Below are positions 14,304 to 25,259 of a DNA stretch of 64,000 nucleotides, piece by piece (the stretch's first letter is position 1; the number at the start of each line of letters is the position of its first letter). This DNA comes from Alteromonas mediterranea DE. Lineage in GTDB: Bacteria; Pseudomonadota; Gammaproteobacteria; Enterobacterales; Alteromonadaceae. Position numbers and translations under genes: made by a program. The notes below the pieces were generated by a model that saw only the letters and a list, made by a program, of their open reading frames with translations, was not told the origin of the DNA and made no database searches. The DNA is taken from contig NC_011138.3 of NCBI RefSeq assembly GCF_000020585.3, positions 1,393,191 to 1,457,190 of the forward strand, written 5' to 3'.

Positions 14304-15740
14304 ATGTTTGAGAATTTATCAGAACGCTTAGGCCAAACATTACGAAATGTAAGTGGTAAAGGGCGTCTTACTGAAGACAATATTAAAGAGACGCTACGTG
14401 AAGTGCGCATGGCGCTGCTTGAAGCCGACGTAGCGCTGCCAGTGGTCAAAGCGTTTGTTGCTCAGGTAAAAGAGCGTGCGGTTGGTACAGAAGTTACTAA
14501 AAGCTTAAAGCCAGGCCAAGTATTCATAAAAATCGTTCAGTCTGAACTCGAGTCGGTAATGGGGGAGGCGAATGAAAAGCTTAACCTAGCCACTCAGCCT
14601 CCTGCTGTAGTGCTTATGGCTGGTTTACAAGGTGCGGGTAAAACCACCTCTGTAGGTAAACTTGCTAAGTACCTGACTGAACGTGAGAAAAAGAAAGTGA
14701 TGGTAGTCAGTGCTGACGTTTATCGTCCAGCCGCTATCAAGCAGCTTGAAACCCTAGCTGATGAAGTGAAGGTTGCGTTTCACCCATCTACTATCTTACA
14801 AAAGCCCATTGATATCGTTAACGATGCCATCGCTGAAGCGAAGAAAAACTTCTTTGATGTTCTGCTTGTAGATACAGCAGGCCGTTTGCACGTCGATAAC
14901 GACATGATGAACGAAATTACAGAGTTACACGCTGCGGTTAAGCCCATTGAGACCCTATTCGTAGTTGATGCCATGACAGGTCAAGATGCCGCTAATACAG
15001 CAAAAGCGTTTAACGACGCGCTACCACTGACCGGTGTTATTCTTACTAAGGCCGACGGTGACGCCCGCGGCGGTGCGGCATTATCTGTACGTCACATAAC
15101 AGGTAAGCCCATTAAGTTCATCGGTATGGGCGAAAAAGTGGATGCGCTTGAGCCATTCCACCCTGAGCGTATTGCTTCTCGTATCTTGGGTATGGGCGAC
15201 GTACTAAGCCTTATCGAAGAAGTTGAGCGCAAGGTCGACAAATCAAAAGCCGAAAAGCTGGCGAAAAAAGTTCAAAAAGGCAAGGGCTTTGATCTTCAAG
15301 ACTTTAAAGATCAGCTTGAGCAAATGAAGAACATGGGCGGCATGATGGGCATGCTAGATAAGCTGCCTGGCATGGGTGGTATGTCTGATAAGATTAAAGA
15401 TCAGGCAAACGACAAGCAGTTCAACCAAATGGAAGCCATTATTAATTCAATGACACCAGCTGAGCGCGCTCGCCCTGATATTATCAAAGGCTCGCGCAAG
15501 CGTCGTATCGCAGCGGGTTCAGGTACGCAAATACAAGATGTAAACCGCTTGCTTAAGCAGTTTACACAAATGCAGAAAATGATGAAAAAAATGTCTGGCG
15601 GCGGCATGAAGAAAATGATGCGCCAGATGAAAGGCATGGTGCCACCCGGTGGCGGTTTAGGTGGACCAGGCGGGCCAGGCGGCCCTGGTGGTTTTGGCGG
15701 AGGCGGCTTCGGCGGAGGCGGTGGTTTCCCTCCTCGCTAA
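14304..15740 (+). CDS. ffh: Signal recognition particle protein Ffh
   Basis: Ffh is the GTPase that, with 4.5S RNA, delivers nascent membrane proteins to FtsY and the translocon. The N domain is followed by the G domain with P-loop GLQGAGKTTS near residue 107, DTAGR near 190 and TKADGDARGG near 248. The methionine-rich M domain follows (MKNMGGMMGMLDKLPGMGG, then MQKMMKKMSGGGMKKMM). The protein is 478 residues, longer than the 453 of E. coli, because it ends in an unusual glycine/proline tail of about 30 residues after the M domain. A terminator follows 20 bases later. Confidence 0.96.
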   Translation: MFENLSERLGQTLRNVSGKGRLTEDNIKETLREVRMALLEADVALPVVKAFVAQVKERAVGTEVTKSLKPGQVFIKIVQSELESVMGEANEKLNLATQPPAVVLMAGLQGAGKTTSVGKLAKYLTEREKKKVMVVSADVYRPAAIKQLETLADEVKVAFHPSTILQKPIDIVNDAIAEAKKNFFDVLLVDTAGRLHVDNDMMNEITELHAAVKPIETLFVVDAMTGQDAANTAKAFNDALPLTGVILTKADGDARGGAALSVRHITGKPIKFIGMGEKVDALEPFHPERIASRILGMGDVLSLIEEVERKVDKSKAEKLAKKVQKGKGFDLQDFKDQLEQMKNMGGMMGMLDKLPGMGGMSDKIKDQANDKQFNQMEAIINSMTPAERARPDIIKGSRKRRIAAGSGTQIQDVNRLLKQFTQMQKMMKKMSGGGMKKMMRQMKGMVPPGGGLGGPGGPGGPGGFGGGGFGGGGGFPPR

Positions 15741-15799: not shown

Positions 15800-15922
15800 T
15801 TTTTGTTGCATCCAATATCAAACGTTGGTCGTTTGGCTTGTTGAACAGGACGTGAGCAGTACTTATCGCACACATTTGCGGTTGACAGCGTCTCTTCAAA
15901 TAAAACAAGTATGGAGATGATG

Positions 15923-17989
15923 ATGGAACTTAATAAAACATCGCAGCAAAAAATAAAATTGTCACTATTAGCGACGGCTATGGTTTTCGCCTTAAGCGCC
16001 TGTGATGGTGACGACGGCACTAACGGTATAGATGGCGTCGACGGCGCGCCAGGCCAAAATGGAGCACCAGGGCAAGATGGCACCCCTGGCTTTGCTGCGG
16101 CCACTTTCCTTGTTGCCAATAATGGTGATGACAACCGAAATACGGTAACCGCAATTGATCAAAACGCCAATGCGCTAAGCACGGTAACGACAGGCGCCAA
16201 TGAAGGCATCGTCTTTACGCAAAGCGGCGCGTTAGTTCAGGCAGGTGATAGTGACTTACCGTTAGTAAGAAGTTTTTGTGGTTTCGATGCTCAGTCTAAC
16301 TATATGATGAATAGAGGGCACGAGCTCACCGGTGCTGCCACAGGCCTAGTTAATCCGAAAGGGATCGCGTTTGCTGAAGAGGCGGGCCTTATCATGATCG
16401 CAGACTTTAACGGTCAGAAAATAAGTGTATTCGGCGGCCAAGCGGCGGGCGACGTAGCGCCTATTGCGGAAATTATGACGTCGGCAAAGCCATGGGACCT
16501 TGCCTATGACGAAGAAAGTGACAGACTGTATGTTGCGCTGACCGACGGCACGCTAGCAGTCTATGACGATGTGGCAAGTTCTGATTTTGCCCCGTCAGTT
16601 ATGCGCTCTGTGGTACCCTCTGATGCTGATGGAAATCAGCTATCGATAAATCTGCACGGTATCGTTTATGAGCCTATGTCCAACCGTATTGTGTTATCAG
16701 ATGTTGGTGATGCCGCGGTCGCTGACGACGGCCAAATTTTTGTTTTAGATAATGTGTCGACTGCAGACGGAGCAACAGTGCCTACCAGAGTAATTGGTGG
16801 CGCAACGACGCAGCTTGGAAATCCGGTGGATATTATCCTTACAGGGTCGGATTTGCGCGTGGCAGAGAAGTCAAATGATGCAATCTTGGTTTTCTCGAAT
16901 ATCTTTAACGGCGAAAGTGGTGATGTAGCGCCAACGTTGTCTACGCCTTCAGTAAAACCAGAATCACTTGCCGAGTTTACAGACCTTGAGACCATGGTAG
17001 ATAGCTCTGACGACGGTATCACAACAATGCCAATTAGGGGCCTTTCTGTTTCAAGCAATCCTTCAACAGACAGCGAGACCACGGGGCAGGTGGCCCAGTA
17101 CAGCGCGGTTTTATCAAGTGAACTAAGCACATTTGACAGTGGAATGAGCATTGAAAGTGCGGCTTACACAGCAAGCGGTGACGGTGTCATCACGTTTGAT
17201 AACCCCGATACATCTACCGGCGGCCTTATCGTGGTTAATCGTCTTAAAACGATGCGTGACGGTATGATGTATAGCGATAGCTATGATCATATGATTGTGG
17301 GTAATGAAACAGGGCTTATCGCGCCTAAAGGCTTAGATATATCGTCTGACAACGGCATGGTATTTGTTGCCGATGTGAACGAGACTACACCTGCGGTTAG
17401 GGTATTTTCACCGTGTGCTTCAGGTAATGTAGCGCCTTTACTCAACTTAGAGGCTGCTAACGGAGCGCGACCATGGGACGTAGATTATGACCCGTCTACT
17501 GATAGCGCTTACTTAGCGTTAACCAATGGCACCGTTGCGGTATTTGAAGAAGTCGTACGCAAGATGGAAAGTGGTCAAACGGTAATAACCGGTGAAGATA
17601 GACTGATTGTTCCGGCAAGCGACGGCACAGCGTTTGCCGCACCAACGAATATTCACGGTATCGATTACGATAGCCAAAGCGATAGTCTGGTGATTTCTGA
17701 TGTAGGTAGTGCCGCCGATGCCACCGACGGAAAGCTTTACGTGATATCAGGCGCAGGCAGTGCTGATGGGCTCGCTAATGTATCGGTTAATATTGCAGGT
17801 CCTAATTCCATGTTAGGAAACCCGGTAGACCTTATGCTGAGCAATGGACACGTTTATGTCGCTGAAAAATCAAACGGTATGATTCTTCGCTTTGATAATA
17901 TTTTGAACGCTAGCTCGGGTGATATCGACCCTACGTTTAGCATGATGTACCCTGCACCTGAATCGGTACAGGTGTTGCCAGTAAAGTAA
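15923..17989 (+). CDS. Lipoprotein with collagen-like repeats and a duplicated beta-propeller
   Basis: I recognise no named family. The start at 15923 is chosen among four clustered ATG codons because GGAG lies six bases before it. A lipobox (FALSAC) near residue 25 predicts a lipid-anchored protein. Directly after it come about nine Gly-X-Y triplets (GIDGVDGAPGQNGAPGQDG), as in collagen-like linkers. The rest consists of two homologous halves of about 300 residues with NHL/YncE-type propeller blades: for example GLVNPKGIAFAEEAGLIMIAD against GLIAPKGLDISSDNGMVFVAD, and QLGNPVDIILTG against MLGNPVDLMLSN. It is probably an exposed binding or scaffold protein; the ligand is unknown. A terminator follows. 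Confidence 0.75.
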   Translation: MELNKTSQQKIKLSLLATAMVFALSACDGDDGTNGIDGVDGAPGQNGAPGQDGTPGFAAATFLVANNGDDNRNTVTAIDQNANALSTVTTGANEGIVFTQSGALVQAGDSDLPLVRSFCGFDAQSNYMMNRGHELTGAATGLVNPKGIAFAEEAGLIMIADFNGQKISVFGGQAAGDVAPIAEIMTSAKPWDLAYDEESDRLYVALTDGTLAVYDDVASSDFAPSVMRSVVPSDADGNQLSINLHGIVYEPMSNRIVLSDVGDAAVADDGQIFVLDNVSTADGATVPTRVIGGATTQLGNPVDIILTGSDLRVAEKSNDAILVFSNIFNGESGDVAPTLSTPSVKPESLAEFTDLETMVDSSDDGITTMPIRGLSVSSNPSTDSETTGQVAQYSAVLSSELSTFDSGMSIESAAYTASGDGVITFDNPDTSTGGLIVVNRLKTMRDGMMYSDSYDHMIVGNETGLIAPKGLDISSDNGMVFVADVNETTPAVRVFSPCASGNVAPLLNLEAANGARPWDVDYDPSTDSAYLALTNGTVAVFEEVVRKMESGQTVITGEDRLIVPASDGTAFAAPTNIHGIDYDSQSDSLVISDVGSAADATDGKLYVISGAGSADGLANVSVNIAGPNSMLGNPVDLMLSNGHVYVAEKSNGMILRFDNILNASSGDIDPTFSMMYPAPESVQVLPVK

Positions 17990-18969: not shown

Positions 18970-21900
18970 ATGGCAGGCTTAAAACGTATTATTCTTATCG
19001 ACACGCATTTACCAGGCGTGGTCGAACTAAAGCTTGATGGACACACCAATATTTGTGGTACCAATGCGTCGGGTAAAACTACGCTACAGCGACTGATCCC
19101 CGTTTTTTATGGTGAATATCCTAGTCGCGTTGTACCCGCCACCAGAGACAGTTTTGAACGTTGGTATCTACCTCGCCTGTCTAGCTTTATTATTTACGAA
19201 TACACCCGCGCCGAAGGTGATCTGTGTCAAGCTGTATTAAGTTCTAACGGTACTGGCGTAAACTACCGCTTAATTGGAAAGCCGTTTGATATTAACGACT
19301 ATCTGATAGAGCAAAAGAGCGGTAAACACGCAAGCGTTAGCAGCGCCGAGCTTGCTCGCGCCATGAAGCGCAATAACGTCATGGTCACCAGCTTGCTTAA
19401 TACCAAAGACTTTCGCGCAATTATTCAAAACGATCATGGCGTGCTAAACCAAAGCAACAACGCTCGGGAACTATTAGGTTACGCCAAAATTTTTAGTCTG
19501 TGCGAGCCGTCAAAGCACATGCGCCACATCGAGAAGTTGGCAAAGGCGGTTCACTCCAAAGAAGGCAAGATGGAAACTATCAAAGCCATGATAGCGGCTA
19601 TCTTGGAAGAGGATGGCGTTACACCACCGACTTCGGGCTTAAGTCGCCACCGCGTAGATGACTGGATCAAAGAGTGTCACTTAATTAAGCAGTTCGATAA
19701 AATTCGCCCAGAGTTTTCAAAGCTCGAACAGGCTGACATGGCTTTAACGAGCACAGAGCAAGTGCTTGCTAACCTGAAACATAGCTTTGAACTTGATAAA
19801 ACTTATTTGGCTGCACGTGTTGAAACCACAAAAAATGAGCTTGATGAAAACAGCTTTCAGCGCAAGCAAACTGATAGTGAATGGGGTGATACAAGGGATC
19901 ACTTAAACCAGGTTATTTCCTCCGCCCGTGCTGATGTCGAGAAGTTCACTAGCGAGCTTGATACGGTAGAGCGTGAGTTCGACAAATGGCAAGACGAGAA
20001 CATTGAACAGCTTAAAGAAGACGTAGCAAATCTAGCCCAATGGCAAAATGAAAAAGCCATGGCCGACAGTCGCTATGTTTTACTAACCGAAAAACACCAA
20101 GATATTGAGTCTGCTTACAATAAACGTTTAGCCGAGCTAGGCGAAAAGCTGTCTATTACGCTGGAAGAAATGTCTGCTGCTCGCCAAGAAGCAGCAGAAA
20201 ATAAAGCCGAGCAGCAGCAGAGCGAACGAGAAGCTCTAAGTCGAATTCGCGAAGACTATAACGGTCAGTTAACGGCTTTGCAGAACGACTACCAAAATAG
20301 TTTAAATGAGCTGAAAGTAGCAGAAGCTGAGCTGAAGGCTTCGCTTACCAATGCAGGTTACAATGAATTCGAGCAGTCTCAACTTGATATCTTAGATGCA
20401 GCCATTAAAGAAGCGTCAATTAATGAAGATGCAGCGCGAGGTGAATTAAGACAAGCGCAGCAAGCGCATAGTAAGTCGGTAGAGTTCCGAAAAGAGTGTT
20501 CAAATGCGCTCGATAGAGCGCGCGCTGCTTTCCAACAAGAAGAGAAGGCCGTTAATAAAATTAACGGGCTACTTTACCCCGGTGAAGGTTCGCTGCTTGA
20601 GTTCTTGCGTGCTAATGTTGATGATTGGGAACTGTCGTTAGGTAAAGTGATTCGTCCAGAGTTGCTTGAACGCTCAGATTTAGCACCAGAAATGACTACC
20701 GATGCGCCGAGCGACAGCAGCAGCTTTATGGGCGTTAAGTTAGCGCTTACTGAACTCGATACCCCAGATTACGCCTTTACTGAGCAAACGCTCAAGCAGA
20801 AACTGCAAGAAGCAGAGTTGCGTCAGGCGGCAGCGCATGCCGCCCAAAACGAATGTGAGCAGCGATTAGCAAAAGCTAATGAAGAAGTGCGTAACGCAGA
20901 ATTGGTGGTAACACAAAAAGACAACGCCGTTAAAAGTGCAGAGGCGACGCGCAAGCGTGCGCAACAAGACCGCGATACCGTACTAAGTGAATATCAGCAG
21001 GCACTCTCTGCACGAAAACAAAAAGCCAAAACGAAACTTGAGGCTAACCAACAGTCACAAAAACAAGCAAAAGCACAATTTGAGCTTAGCCGAGACGAAA
21101 TAAAGGATCAGCAGCGCGAAGCCGAAACCGAACACAAGTTCCACTGGCAGCAGCTTATTTCCGATAGCGAAGCGCGTATTTCAAAAGCCGATAGCGATAT
21201 GCGTAAGGCAAAAGATAACGCGGCTCAAGATAGAAAAGACATGCAAGACTGGCTGGAAAGCGAGTTGAATAATCGCGGTGTCGACGTTGATGAAATCGGT
21301 CAGCTTAAAAAGCAAATTAATAAGCTTAAAGAAGACATTACGCGCACCGAAACCCACCGTCATAAAGTGGCCGACTACGAACGTTGGTACACCAATGTGT
21401 TTAATAAGCAAAAAGTGGTATGGCAAGAGGGCTTATCTAAGTCGCGTAAGCTGTTGGGTGAGTCAGAGCGTAATTTAGCGAGCAAGCAGGCCACGTATAA
21501 AGCTACTCGTGAACAGCTTCAAGAGCAACACGCTCAGTTAGAAGCAACCCTTAAAACTGCTAGCGACCATTTAGAGCAGGTGAAAACCTTAAGTAAATCG
21601 TTAGCTAAGCTAACGCTGCATGCAGGGGATGAAACTGCCGAGATTAAACACGATGACGTGAGTATCAGCCAGCGTATCTCAGAAGTGCAAAGTCAGCTTC
21701 AAGAGCGAGAAAACTTGCTAAGCGATATTCGCGCCTACGTAGAAAGGTTCGATCAGTTAATTGCCGCGCAAGCTGGTACAGGCCTGTCTGATACTTGGGA
21801 GCGCGCTCGTGAGGAGTGCGCCACGCTTAATGCACATGGCGTGAAAAGCTTTGACCACCGCCGTATGGTGTCGCACCTCGCTCAGCTTCTGAACGTTATT

Positions 21901-22680
21901 GTGCCTCAAAAACTTCAGGGGCTTCGTGAGCAAGGGCGTATTTTCGGTGCCGATCTTTCACAATACTATTTTGTATTAGCCGATATCGACAAGCGTATCG
22001 TGTCACAAAGCCGTCGTATCACCCAAGAAGTTGATGGTGAGCTATTCCTAGATGGCGTGTCTGACTCTGCAGTTAAAATTCGCTCACGCATTAGTGAACT
22101 TGAGTTTTGGCCTGAGTTAGAGCAGTTCAGAAAACTTTATGAGCACTGGATGGAAGAGGGGGCTAACGAATTACCGGAAGAAGAGTACGGTTTAAGCATG
22201 CGCCGTGTTCTTGATATCCTAGGTCGCGCTGCGCTTACCGGCGGTATTAGCAAGCTTCTTGATATCGAGTTGCATCTGCGTGAAGGTAATAGCGACCTTG
22301 TTATCCGTACCGACCGCCAGCTAAACGAGTCATCAAGCCACGGCATGGCTTACCTCATTTTATGTAAGTTCTTACTCGCGTTCACTCGCCTGTTGCGCGG
22401 CGATGCCGATGCGACTGTGCATTGGCCTATTGATGAGCTCGGCACGCTTCACCAAAGTAATGTGAAGAAGATTTTTGATGCCTGTCAAAATAATAACATT
22501 AGCGTAGTCGGCGCTTTCCCTAACCCTGAATCGGAAGTACTTACGCTATTTGAAAACCGTTATCTTATCGATAAGGTGACGCGTCAACTACAGGTGGTTC
22601 AGCCCAAAGCAAGTTCGATAGCAGCACGCATTAAGGCAAGAAAAGACAGTGAAGCAGCAGGTGAGGAGACATCAGCATGA
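18970..22680 (+). CDS. SMC-like ATPase of a condensin-type complex (DUF3584-like)
   Basis: A 1236-residue ATPase with SMC layout. The Walker A motif GTNASGKTT spans residues 30-38 and a YLP motif (RWYLPRLS) sits at 66-68; conserved GKT and YLP are the hallmarks I recall for Pfam DUF3584. From about 280 to 500 and 640 to 960 the chain is charged coiled coil, separated near 540-640 by a globular hinge-like part. The C-terminal head has a non-canonical signature (NESSSHGMAYLI, near 1120) and Walker B VHWPIDELGTL near 1150-1160. It overlaps the next gene by four bases (ATGA) and heads a three-gene operon with winged-helix and kleisin-like proteins. It resembles MksB/JetC but lacks the usual signature sequence. 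Confidence 0.82.
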   Translation: MAGLKRIILIDTHLPGVVELKLDGHTNICGTNASGKTTLQRLIPVFYGEYPSRVVPATRDSFERWYLPRLSSFIIYEYTRAEGDLCQAVLSSNGTGVNYRLIGKPFDINDYLIEQKSGKHASVSSAELARAMKRNNVMVTSLLNTKDFRAIIQNDHGVLNQSNNARELLGYAKIFSLCEPSKHMRHIEKLAKAVHSKEGKMETIKAMIAAILEEDGVTPPTSGLSRHRVDDWIKECHLIKQFDKIRPEFSKLEQADMALTSTEQVLANLKHSFELDKTYLAARVETTKNELDENSFQRKQTDSEWGDTRDHLNQVISSARADVEKFTSELDTVEREFDKWQDENIEQLKEDVANLAQWQNEKAMADSRYVLLTEKHQDIESAYNKRLAELGEKLSITLEEMSAARQEAAENKAEQQQSEREALSRIREDYNGQLTALQNDYQNSLNELKVAEAELKASLTNAGYNEFEQSQLDILDAAIKEASINEDAARGELRQAQQAHSKSVEFRKECSNALDRARAAFQQEEKAVNKINGLLYPGEGSLLEFLRANVDDWELSLGKVIRPELLERSDLAPEMTTDAPSDSSSFMGVKLALTELDTPDYAFTEQTLKQKLQEAELRQAAAHAAQNECEQRLAKANEEVRNAELVVTQKDNAVKSAEATRKRAQQDRDTVLSEYQQALSARKQKAKTKLEANQQSQKQAKAQFELSRDEIKDQQREAETEHKFHWQQLISDSEARISKADSDMRKAKDNAAQDRKDMQDWLESELNNRGVDVDEIGQLKKQINKLKEDITRTETHRHKVADYERWYTNVFNKQKVVWQEGLSKSRKLLGESERNLASKQATYKATREQLQEQHAQLEATLKTASDHLEQVKTLSKSLAKLTLHAGDETAEIKHDDVSISQRISEVQSQLQERENLLSDIRAYVERFDQLIAAQAGTGLSDTWERAREECATLNAHGVKSFDHRRMVSHLAQLLNVIVPQKLQGLREQGRIFGADLSQYYFVLADIDKRIVSQSRRITQEVDGELFLDGVSDSAVKIRSRISELEFWPELEQFRKLYEHWMEEGANELPEEEYGLSMRRVLDILGRAALTGGISKLLDIELHLREGNSDLVIRTDRQLNESSSHGMAYLILCKFLLAFTRLLRGDADATVHWPIDELGTLHQSNVKKIFDACQNNNISVVGAFPNPESEVLTLFENRYLIDKVTRQLQVVQPKASSIAARIKARKDSEAAGEETSA

Positions 22681-23312
22681 TGACAGAACAAGGCCGTGTA
22701 CTAAGTGCACTTTTACAAGGCGCGTTTATTTGTCAGGTCACCGATGAGGAAGCGTGGCGCTTTCTGAAAAGTAGGGATAATGCCGCGCAACTAGAGCCTC
22801 ACCTAGCTTTGCTGAACCGCACGCTTTCAACTACCGCTGAAGGGGATGTGTTTTTTGCAAGCTACCTCACCATAGGTGAGAGCGAACGCAAGGTGTTAAC
22901 GCAGCAGTTTCAAGATACGGCATCTAACTTAGTGCCGCTCGTTGAGTGGCTGCTATTGGTGCAACAGGCGAATGAGTCTGATATGCCTATTACTATGGGC
23001 AGCGCTATCCGTTTAAACGAATTGCAGACGACCATTGAAGACACACCGGCTTATGCTGAGCAACTAGAAAAAATTTCGCGCTACCGCATGTTTGGCTCAA
23101 CCAGTGTCAACCTAGACGGACAGCTAAAGCAGGTATTTAAACGCTTAACCGACATGGGCTATTTAATAAAACCAAACCCAGATAAGCAAATTTACTTGGG
23201 AACGGGAAAGGTTGAGCACCTTTATGAAATGCTGCGTTTTATCGATGAAACCGAAGCGTTGAGTTTATCTGAGCAGGCGGAGGCCGCTATTTCGCAAGGT
23301 AGCTTGATATGA
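22677..23312 (+). CDS. MksE/KITE-like condensin subunit
   Basis: A 211-residue soluble protein, second gene of the SMC operon, translated from an ATG that overlaps the SMC stop and itself overlaps the next gene by four bases. I cannot assign a family with certainty by eye. The size, the alpha-helical start (GRVLSALLQGAFICQVTDEE) and the C-terminal winged-helix-like segment (QVFKRLTDMGYLIKPNPDKQ, then IYLGTGKVEHLYEMLRF) fit the KITE-type subunit (MksE/JetB) that binds kleisin in bacterial condensins. The function is inferred mainly from the operon. Confidence 0.65.
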   Translation: MMTEQGRVLSALLQGAFICQVTDEEAWRFLKSRDNAAQLEPHLALLNRTLSTTAEGDVFFASYLTIGESERKVLTQQFQDTASNLVPLVEWLLLVQQANESDMPITMGSAIRLNELQTTIEDTPAYAEQLEKISRYRMFGSTSVNLDGQLKQVFKRLTDMGYLIKPNPDKQIYLGTGKVEHLYEMLRFIDETEALSLSEQAEAAISQGSLI

Positions 23313-24526
23313 GTCAGGTATTAATTCAGGCCGGTACTAAGCTATTAAATGCATTAGGGCGGCACAGCGACCTGATAATGCAGGCGTATGTTAACGGATC
23401 GGTAAAAGAGCGGGATTACAGCCCTAAGGTACTAGAGCAACTTGTGCAGCTAGGTGTACTGTGGCGTCCCGAAGCGCAAAGTGAACTGCGCCTTAAAAGC
23501 GCAGTGCGTACGCTTTTAGAAGGGAGCTTGCAAGACGATCGTAACCGCACTATTAATGCGAATATTGGCGCGTCATTAGCTAGCCTTAAAACCCTTACTG
23601 AACATTATAAAGAAGCGCTTCATTACAACAAATATAATGAAGCGGCTGCGCACATGAGTGATTTGACGGAACATGTTTATCAGCTCTCTGAATCGCTAAG
23701 CAATAGTGTTCGCGTGATGTTTGGCCGCATAAACAATGAGTTTGGTTACGTGTCGTCGGTTGAAGCAAAAATTCGTGAAAACGAGCTAGCTCAGGGGCAG
23801 GTAACGGATTTACTGGCGCAGCTTGAGTGTTTCCGCTTTGATGAGTTAAGCGAACTGGCGGGGTCTAACCGTGAATTACGTCATCTGCTGGTGGTATCAC
23901 TACAACAGCGCTTTGCAAAAGCGGCGCAGGAATTGTCGGTAGTTCAAGCGCGCTTACTAGACTTACTTGGTCGTTTCAGAGAGTTTCAAGGGCGTACACG
24001 TTTGCTTAAAGGCTTTTTGCTGCATATGGAGCAGCAGCCAGATTTCGCACCGGGCAACTATGCTAACCTAACCAATGTACCTGTATTGTTTAATCAGTCA
24101 GCATCTATTATTGCAACGGCAGCGCCTGATGTTAACAATGTAGAGCATGAAGCGGATTACCAACATATTGTCGCGGCGTTGTCTCACATCCATAAGCGTC
24201 AGTCGAAACACGAAGACACTAAACCCGCTGATATAGACGTTACTGCACAATCCACCGTATCGCTGGAAAAAGACCCGCTACAGAAAGCGGTAGAAGACTA
24301 CTTCTGCGATGTCATCGATTCGGGCCAACCGAAAACCGCACTCGATTATTTTGAGCAGCATGCGTTGGAGTTTGACCCGGAAGTATGGATTTACCAAGTG
24401 ATTGGCGGCTATCAAGCCTTAGATGAGCAGGATAAGCAGTTTTTTGCATTAGAACCCCACGGTAAGAACGATAAAGTCTATACCGGCAACTTCTACATAA
24501 GTGATATTACTCTAGGTCTGCGATAA
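23309..24526 (+). CDS. MksF/kleisin-like condensin subunit
   Basis: A 405-residue protein, last of the SMC operon. The N-terminal third looks like a winged-helix unit (PKVLEQLVQLGVLWRPEAQS), the centre (about 85-260) is long helices (EAAAHMSDLTEHVYQLSESL) and the C-terminal region (from about 325) is a second compact domain after a charged linker. This N-domain, helical middle, linker and C-domain plan matches a kleisin such as MksF/JetA, which bridges the two SMC heads. I recall that homologues are often labelled with unrelated enzyme names; no enzyme motif is visible here. A terminator follows. Confidence 0.62.
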   Translation: MSQVLIQAGTKLLNALGRHSDLIMQAYVNGSVKERDYSPKVLEQLVQLGVLWRPEAQSELRLKSAVRTLLEGSLQDDRNRTINANIGASLASLKTLTEHYKEALHYNKYNEAAAHMSDLTEHVYQLSESLSNSVRVMFGRINNEFGYVSSVEAKIRENELAQGQVTDLLAQLECFRFDELSELAGSNRELRHLLVVSLQQRFAKAAQELSVVQARLLDLLGRFREFQGRTRLLKGFLLHMEQQPDFAPGNYANLTNVPVLFNQSASIIATAAPDVNNVEHEADYQHIVAALSHIHKRQSKHEDTKPADIDVTAQSTVSLEKDPLQKAVEDYFCDVIDSGQPKTALDYFEQHALEFDPEVWIYQVIGGYQALDEQDKQFFALEPHGKNDKVYTGNFYISDITLGLR

Positions 24527-24560
24527 CGAAGAAGATCTTCAACTTATCAAATGTTCATCA

Positions 24561-24610
24561 CGCCCAGCGGTTTTATATGTAATGACACTGGGCGAAACTA
24601 TTTTGTTTTC
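24561..24610 (+). terminator. Probable terminator of the condensin-like operon
   Basis: CGCCCAG and CTGGGCG form a seven-base GC-rich stem with a 20-base loop, then a T-rich run (ATTTTGTTTTC). It starts 35 bases after the last stop of the operon. Confidence 0.55.
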
Positions 24611-24636
24611 TCTACCATAAAAACCAATTTAGACAC

Positions 24637-24664
24637 TTGGAACACGCCGAAAAGTACCTATAAT
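24637..24664 (+). promoter_or_regulatory. Sigma-70 promoter for the TerB-like gene
   Basis: TTGGAA, 16 bases, then a perfect TATAAT. The nearest gene downstream is the TerB-like protein. Confidence 0.55.
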
Positions 24665-24866
24665 ACAATAGGTGTTTACACTTATTTAACATAGTGAACT
24701 TAAAGATTCATGGCAGCGTAATATGTCTGTCAATCGCACGGACTATGCTTACAAACGTGCGGTGAACACTAGGTCTGGCCCACGAAAGTCGGTCTTACTG
24801 TAAGTTTCTGCAGGATGTAGAATAGGTTGTGGTACTGCCGCGTACAGTACGAAGAGGAAGAGTGTT

Positions 24867-25259
24867 ATGCAATTATCAGAACAACAAAGTTTCAATCAAG
24901 CCCTAATCAAATTATCAGTATTGCTCTATCAGGTGGACGGTATGGTCACTTTATCAGAACAAGACTACCTAAATGCGATGGTCGACTCATTAGACTGGCA
25001 AAGCCCAATATGTCCAGAAGCGTTTTTAAACGATACGATTTACCAAACGCGAAAGGCCATAGATACGGGTGATGCCATTACCTTCTTACGCAGTTTAAAA
25101 AACGATCTCGCTTTCGATGCAGAAAAGACCATGGAAGTTGCTATGGCTATTACCGGAGTAGACGGTGAAAGAAGTGATGAAGAAACGGAGTTATTGTCTC
25201 TTCTTACGCATAAACTGCTAGCAAAAGCGTTGGTTTCAAGTAACGATACGCTGCAGTAA
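24867..25259 (+). CDS. TerB-family protein
   Basis: A 130-residue all-helical acidic protein. The pattern LSVLLYQVDGMVTLSEQDYL and MAITGVDGERSDEETELLSL matches the two acidic-loop halves of the TerB fold (tellurite-resistance protein B and the DjlA N-terminus), which may bind metal through its Asp/Glu residues. A GAGGAAGAG lies before the ATG. It is preceded by an unusually long leader and followed closely by the hydrolase gene, so the two may be cotranscribed. A second TerB-like gene lies at 45306. The exact role is unknown. Confidence 0.7.
   Translation: MQLSEQQSFNQALIKLSVLLYQVDGMVTLSEQDYLNAMVDSLDWQSPICPEAFLNDTIYQTRKAIDTGDAITFLRSLKNDLAFDAEKTMEVAMAITGVDGERSDEETELLSLLTHKLLAKALVSSNDTLQ

Follow-up and report, generated by a model that had tools for sequence, protein, structure and literature searches.

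We found that a 64,000-nt stretch of the Alteromonas mediterranea DE genome (contig NC_011138.3, positions 1,393,191 to 1,457,190, referred to as the window) carries a three-gene operon for an SMC ATPase, a KITE subunit and a probable kleisin, which very probably form an accessory condensin of the MksBEF/JetABC kind. Comparison with relatives suggests that the operon belongs to a Wadjet-like SMC family that was originally armed with its own nuclease, and that this family has probably been disarmed repeatedly while its motor was kept as an accessory condensin.

The open reading frames (ORFs) lie exactly where an earlier note, made from the letters alone, had placed an SMC-first operon, with 4-base overlaps at both the SMC/KITE and the KITE/kleisin junctions. 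The SMC protein matches Pfam PF12128 (DUF3584) with 1064.7 bits (cut-off: 31) over residues 8 to 1202 (profile positions 1 to 1191) and contains a Walker A motif (GTNASGKTT, residue 30), a YLP segment (residues 64–74), a C-motif (NESSSHGMAYLI, residue 1119) and a Walker B motif (WPIDELG, residue 1152). The KITE protein scores 29.0 bits against Pfam PF21980 (MksE; cut-off: 27). Since the same genome (4.48 Mb, one contig) also has a canonical Smc (two segments, 1008 bits together) and ScpA, the window operon is a second condensin-like set. Identity of the window SMC with the Smc of Smc-ScpAB was rejected, as its score against TIGR02168 was 16.7 bits (cut-off: 567.35) and the true Smc is encoded elsewhere. 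Patterns resembling promoters or terminators occurred around the operon at no higher frequency than in shuffled sequence.

The earlier note had suggested a survey of gene order and of JetD homologues, which we carried out on 130 relatives, i.e., fetched loci with both SMC and kleisin genes; loci with a DUF7281 nuclease gene behind the kleisin gene are called armed and those without it unarmed, and the genus as grouped here is a wide one. Outside this set stand L047 (a contig fragment), L226, whose SMC escaped the seed model although its KITE, kleisin and nuclease were found, and eight loci retrieved because of other matches. The SMC-KITE-kleisin (S-E-F) order on one strand was present in 130 of 130 relatives, and 33 of them were armed: 1 of 35 in the same genus, 22 of 83 in the rest of the family, 5 of 7 at the order level and 5 of 5 at the class level. 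In a sample of 60 genomes, every one of the 36 from the genus, counting the window's own, had a single PF12128 copy, and PF12128 was also present in 8 of the 24 genomes from elsewhere in the order. DUF7281 exceeded its cut-off in six of the 60, each time within the SMC operon and once within the genus (G012). Among 196 family genomes, 92 had PF12128 and 26 had DUF7281 over the cut-off; the DUF7281 gene adjoins the SMC operon in 22 of these 26 and does not in four (G591, G577, where it lies at a contig start, G489 and G550). PF12128 is rare beyond the family: ten of 369 genomes in a class sample had it over the cut-off, three of them from the same family. Ten named loci that were listed include four armed (Stutzerimonas twice, Billgrantia and Denitrificimonas) and six unarmed (Alteromonas twice, Salinimonas, Shewanella twice and Idiomarina), with DUF7281 present in other Shewanella.

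The DUF7281 protein has a predicted Toprim fold, and its structure model resembles MksG, the topoisomerase VI A subunit and JetD. In most armed loci its gene starts within 17 bases of the kleisin end, the exceptions being gaps of 54 and 103 bases in two loci and a long upstream overlap called in two. The armed congener G012 (locus L229) has a gap of 0 and its terB gene 1029 bp past the kleisin. In the window, ORFs and Pfam bear out the claim that no nuclease follows the operon and that a TerB-like gene comes next; a search of positions 24481–24900 for a nuclease remnant gave only chance-level matches (E of 0.1 to 1), and neither DUF7281 nor JetD_C has a match anywhere in this genome. Two stray genes were also seen: a DUF7281/DUF2399 nuclease whose surroundings gave no SMC operon call (L227:7425-8288), on a different contig from the unarmed SMC operon of the same genome (G591), which makes a trans-acting partner possible, and a short DUF7281-like protein directly behind a WYL-domain protein, with no DUF3584 SMC called nearby (L230:7445-9132, G489).

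The earlier note had also described the ABC signature of the window SMC as replaced, which did not hold up. Of the 97 unarmed relatives, 80 have exactly NESSSHGMAYLI, 15 differ from it at the first letter only and 2 otherwise; of the 33 armed relatives, the corresponding counts are 6, 17 and 10. This C-motif is the conserved norm of the SMC family and no degenerate ABC signature.

On an SMC tree of 131 rows (33 armed and 98 unarmed, including the window), the nuclease state changed at least 12 times, with 11 changes forced by well-supported branches, compared with about 30 changes for shuffled states. A second tree, built from head domains, KITE and kleisin with seven divergent or truncated rows omitted (124 rows, 27 armed), required at least 13 changes, 11 of them forced; both trees were built by a quick procedure and contain some long branches. 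On the first tree, 24 losses are needed if regain of the nuclease is disallowed. Nuclease and SMC tree distances are correlated (rho = 0.763, n = 33; 0 of 999 permutations as high). Most groups of the SMC tree recur in the nuclease tree, where the G012 nuclease stands beside those of its SMC neighbours, and the branches disagree inside one group of nine. The nuclease has thus been largely inherited together with the SMC.

Traces of the lost gene were found in two genomes: nuclease residues 3–74 remain directly after the kleisin in G486, and only residues 3–24 in G441, also seen as 42 bases at 86% identity. We compared the DNA after the kleisin in ten sister pairs, three of which displayed a near-exact deletion of the nuclease. 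A 2.4-kb alignment begins 67 bases past the nuclease in L193/L191, the alignment covers the last bases of the nuclease and some 60 beyond in L190/L191, and in L053/L229 it starts at the last bases of the nuclease, which is replaced by 220 unrelated bases. In L215/L210, L166/L164 and L172/L164, the flanks become alignable at a greater distance, and other DNA has also been gained or lost; of the remaining four pairs, two show remnants and two have no alignable DNA (L167/L170 and L194/L192). Comparison with relatives makes it highly likely that the window lineage descends from a four-gene complex by loss of the nuclease.

The core genes have remained under constraint in unarmed loci. Between the window core and eleven same-genus relatives, nonsynonymous divergence (dN) ranged from 0.012 to 0.171 and synonymous divergence (dS) was mostly saturated, with dN/dS of 0.005 to 0.03 where defined. 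Core dN/dS was 0 to 0.09 in eight unarmed pairs (one from the genus) and 0.003 to 0.07 in seven armed pairs; the nuclease evolves faster than the core (0.09 to 0.21 in the three of the seven armed pairs where it is defined). ATPase motifs are retained across the unarmed set with the exception of two rows, namely a G607 ORF without its N-terminus (SMC match in two pieces) and a row with an unread C-motif residue. All 35 other same-genus loci (G012 included) have a co-oriented TerB homologue 88 to 2882 bp past the kleisin, and 26 of the 35 have a co-oriented ffh gene upstream; in the other nine there is no ffh call, and the fetched stretch mostly stops ~3 kb upstream. Strong purifying selection, intact ATPase motifs and TerB synteny in unarmed loci therefore indicate that nuclease loss did not free the core from selection. 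A candidate nuclease-docking footprint in KITE residues 1–25, which seemed more relaxed in unarmed pairs (0.70 versus 0.85 at 60–70% SMC identity), was dropped, as it drew on 8 non-independent armed pairs and vanishes at 80–90% identity (0.94 versus 0.92).

The gene that follows the kleisin varies among unarmed loci. In ten of them, seven such genes were of unrelated types (transporters, aminotransferase, HDOD/EAL, PhoU, HlyD and HD), two had no family above the cut-off, and one (L183) was of the HNH type. In the genus g344, an HNH-type gene for a protein of 123 to 146 aa occupies the nuclease position in four of seven loci, 2 to 24 bp past the kleisin, and the congener L184 has a DUF7281 nuclease at that same position. 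The HNH gene is a possible effector replacement in this genus.

Mobile elements carry the family as well. A tblastn search with the SMC returned 35 plasmid records, several typed as conjugative, and one phage record (Dolichospermum phage Dfl-JY45); we read 16 of the 35 plasmids and the phage. The S-E-F operon was found in 14 of the 16 plasmids, all 14 with the nuclease. Of the remaining two plasmids, one carried just a truncated piece of SMC and the other (Phocaeicola) had a different gene order. The SMC gene was broken in 2 of the 14 operons (L284 and L299), the latter lying next to a WYL-domain gene and Tn7-like transposition genes on an IncC plasmid. The phage record holds a complete SMC-KITE-kleisin-nuclease operon (L278:4950-11326), all of whose products are named hypothetical. 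Because all S-E-F copies that we read are armed and L299 stands beside Tn7-like genes, the plasmid and phage copies appear to be defence cargo.

These operons are barely recognised by PADLOC-DB 2.0.0 in the loci scanned. Nine proteins encoded in four armed loci were scanned: the complete set of four from L279, three from L281, and the nuclease alone from L042 and from L214. Three of the four nucleases gave weak JetD matches (28.7 bits or less) and the fourth none, and there was no JetA, JetB or JetC match. The window SMC scored 21.5 bits to LmuB and 17.7 to JetC1, with nothing for the KITE and no Jet-model match for the kleisin. As a positive control, a Wadjet operon of the genus (G022, L286) gave 1272.7 bits to JetC1. 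This Wadjet-like operon (L286:67-5997), with PADLOC matches and a short first gene, and a second one (L287:1281-8015, G033) each include JetD_C and occur beside the core three-gene operon; the two kinds of operon are not mutually exclusive, because both genomes carry both. Three further loci (L255:5255-11005, L256:1523-7272 and L258:3043-8774) show a Toprim/JetD-like gene first, an SMC of ~980 aa, a ~470-aa protein and, at the end, a short protein. In L255, the one of the three scanned, these gave JetD_C, a C-terminal PF12128 match, no clear family and MksE, with one weak PADLOC JetD match.

In the mechanism that we propose from the family, two SMC ATPase subunits, two KITE subunits and a kleisin would assemble into a ring-shaped motor, using ATP to bind DNA, translocate along it or extrude loops of it. 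The ancestor would have been a four-gene SMC-KITE-kleisin-DUF7281 complex, presumably cleaving small circular DNA like Wadjet. Comparison with relatives indicates that the window lineage lost the nuclease gene and kept the three-gene motor, which is found in every sampled genus genome. The retained activity would most likely be chromosome folding or segregation beside Smc-ScpAB, as for P. aeruginosa MksBEF, whose accessory chromosome role is reported in two papers (PMC10586767; PMC7485682); by this analogy, we regard a chromosome role of the window complex as about evenly balanced. The earlier note had offered a condensin branch and a nuclease-less plasmid restrictor as alternatives, and the evidence joins parts of both: the branch is distinct, many of its members are armed, and the window lineage is disarmed.

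An alternative, which we consider unlikely, is that the window complex still acts against plasmids or phages by stalling, sequestering or silencing circular DNA or by recruiting an unlinked nuclease in trans. The armed state of all 14 S-E-F plasmid operons and of the phage copy makes the family look immune-related, and the unlinked nuclease of G591 and the HNH-type genes of g344 fit such a role; however, the genome of the window has neither a DUF7281 nor a JetD_C match, and one copy in 36 of 36 genus genomes with a constant downstream neighbour is unlike patchy defence genes. Far less probable is that the three-gene form is ancestral and captured the nuclease several times. Counts of state changes alone cannot separate gain from loss, but the remnants and near-exact deletions, the broad congruence of the nuclease and SMC trees, and the armed state of 10 of 12 loci outside the family (5 of 5 at the class level) and of 14 of 14 S-E-F plasmid operons all speak for the loss of the nuclease from a four-gene ancestor.

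The assignment of the third protein (405 aa) as a MukF/JetA-like kleisin is likely and draws on structure modelling. Its AlphaFold2 model (predicted local distance difference test [pLDDT]: 74.8) has a JetABCD-core chain and MukF as top fold matches, with modest Z values, and STAT and CorA bundles follow close behind MukF in the VIA table. No Pfam family exceeded its cut-off, and phmmer against PDB sequences gave nothing relevant. Profile comparisons by hhalign gave probabilities of <1% for the kleisin family against MukF (one sequence) or JetA (two sequences) and <2% for the KITE family against MukE or JetB; the C-motif/Walker B region of the window SMC aligned weakly to MukB (E = 0.001, probability 22%). 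The winged-helix or kleisin relationships that the earlier note had asked for in the second and third proteins are thus seen as an MksE-like Pfam match and a MukF/JetA-like model, the latter not decisive. Many members of this kleisin family are labelled "phosphoenolpyruvate carboxylase" in public databases, apparently a propagated misannotation. A repair-type ATPase of the RecN/SbcC/Rad50 kind with two unrelated small proteins is hardly credible, as weak NCBIfam Rad50 and SMC matches (17.7 and 16.7 bits) stand against 1064.7 bits to PF12128, an MksE-type partner, a MukF/JetA-like third subunit and a constant three-gene order, with no Pfam repair family at E ≤ 1 and no curated repair-family cut-off reached, in line with the earlier note.

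Compared with known systems, the window operon resembles P. aeruginosa MksBEF in that it joins an SMC, a KITE above the Pfam MksE cut-off and a probable kleisin, with Smc and ScpA encoded in the same genome. It differs in its SMC-KITE-kleisin order, the mks order being given as mksF-E-B-G in PMC10123090, and in having an SMC of the DUF3584 family, relatives of which occur with a nuclease family of their own. As in Wadjet, JetABCD and MksBEFG, the SMC complex of the four-gene relatives is accompanied by a protein modelled as MksG-/JetD-like; unlike Wadjet, the family is SMC-first, its nuclease measures ~280 aa versus ~400 aa, PADLOC matches are nil or weak, and the window copy has no nuclease. 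MukBEF is approached in the fold matches of the kleisin model and the weak MukB alignment but has a different gene order. Replacement of MukBEF was rejected, since PF04310 (MukB N-terminal) exceeded its cut-off in 0 of 196 family genomes (four weak matches below it; none of any kind in G000), with E. coli among the positive controls that matched. In the open-licence literature, we found no paper on DUF7281 and none mentioning both MksB and Alteromonas, and neither "Wadjet type IV" nor "type IV Wadjet" occurs among the 15 matches listed out of 573. DUF3584 is mentioned in five papers, and in one of them, PMC9674854, it figures only as a domain within a plasmid-borne "chromosome segregation ATPase."

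The features are collected in Table 1. Between ffh and the operon, window positions 15911–17989 encode a protein that combines NHL repeats with a short Gly-x-x stretch resembling collagen and is found at the same place in only some of the first-fetched genus loci.

Table 1. Features of the operon region (window positions) and HNH-type genes of genus g344 (positions in the named locus)
Feature	Position	Strand	Basis or remark
ffh, syntenic marker upstream of the operon	14304..15740	+	Window ORF list
SMC ATPase (MksB/JetC-like), DUF3584 family, 1236 aa	18970..22680	+	PF12128 match; Walker A, C-motif and Walker B intact
KITE subunit (MksE-like), 211 aa	22677..23312	+	PF21980 match; 4-base overlap with SMC
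Probable kleisin (MukF/JetA-like), 405 aa	23309..24526	+	AlphaFold2 model fold matches
Site of the DUF7281 nuclease gene in armed relatives, empty in the window	24527..24866	+	Comparison with G012
TerB-like gene, conserved genus neighbour outside the tight operon	24867..25259	+	PF05099, 23.3 bits (cut-off 24.4)
HNH-type gene, g344	L183:3579-4016		Pfam
HNH-type gene, g344	L185:3608-4048		Homologue of the L183 gene
HNH-type gene, g344	L186:3619-4053		Homologue of the L183 gene
HNH-type gene, g344	L188:8537-8908		Homologue of the L183 gene

In this family, nuclease loss recurs at many places within a single tree, and armed and disarmed forms can be compared alongside remnants and several pairs whose locus otherwise matches. 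Such matched pairs allow one to ask what an SMC immune complex does without cutting and whether armed complexes also organise the chromosome. In a broader reading, to which we give an even chance, this would be an uncatalogued SMC-first immunity branch with its own Toprim nuclease family, disarmed at least a dozen times in one bacterial family with its motor kept, in which an HNH nuclease may have replaced the effector once. In that reading, the core would have been kept at each disarming, the effector would be a swappable module, and plasmid immunity would be a recurrent source of new chromosomal condensins.

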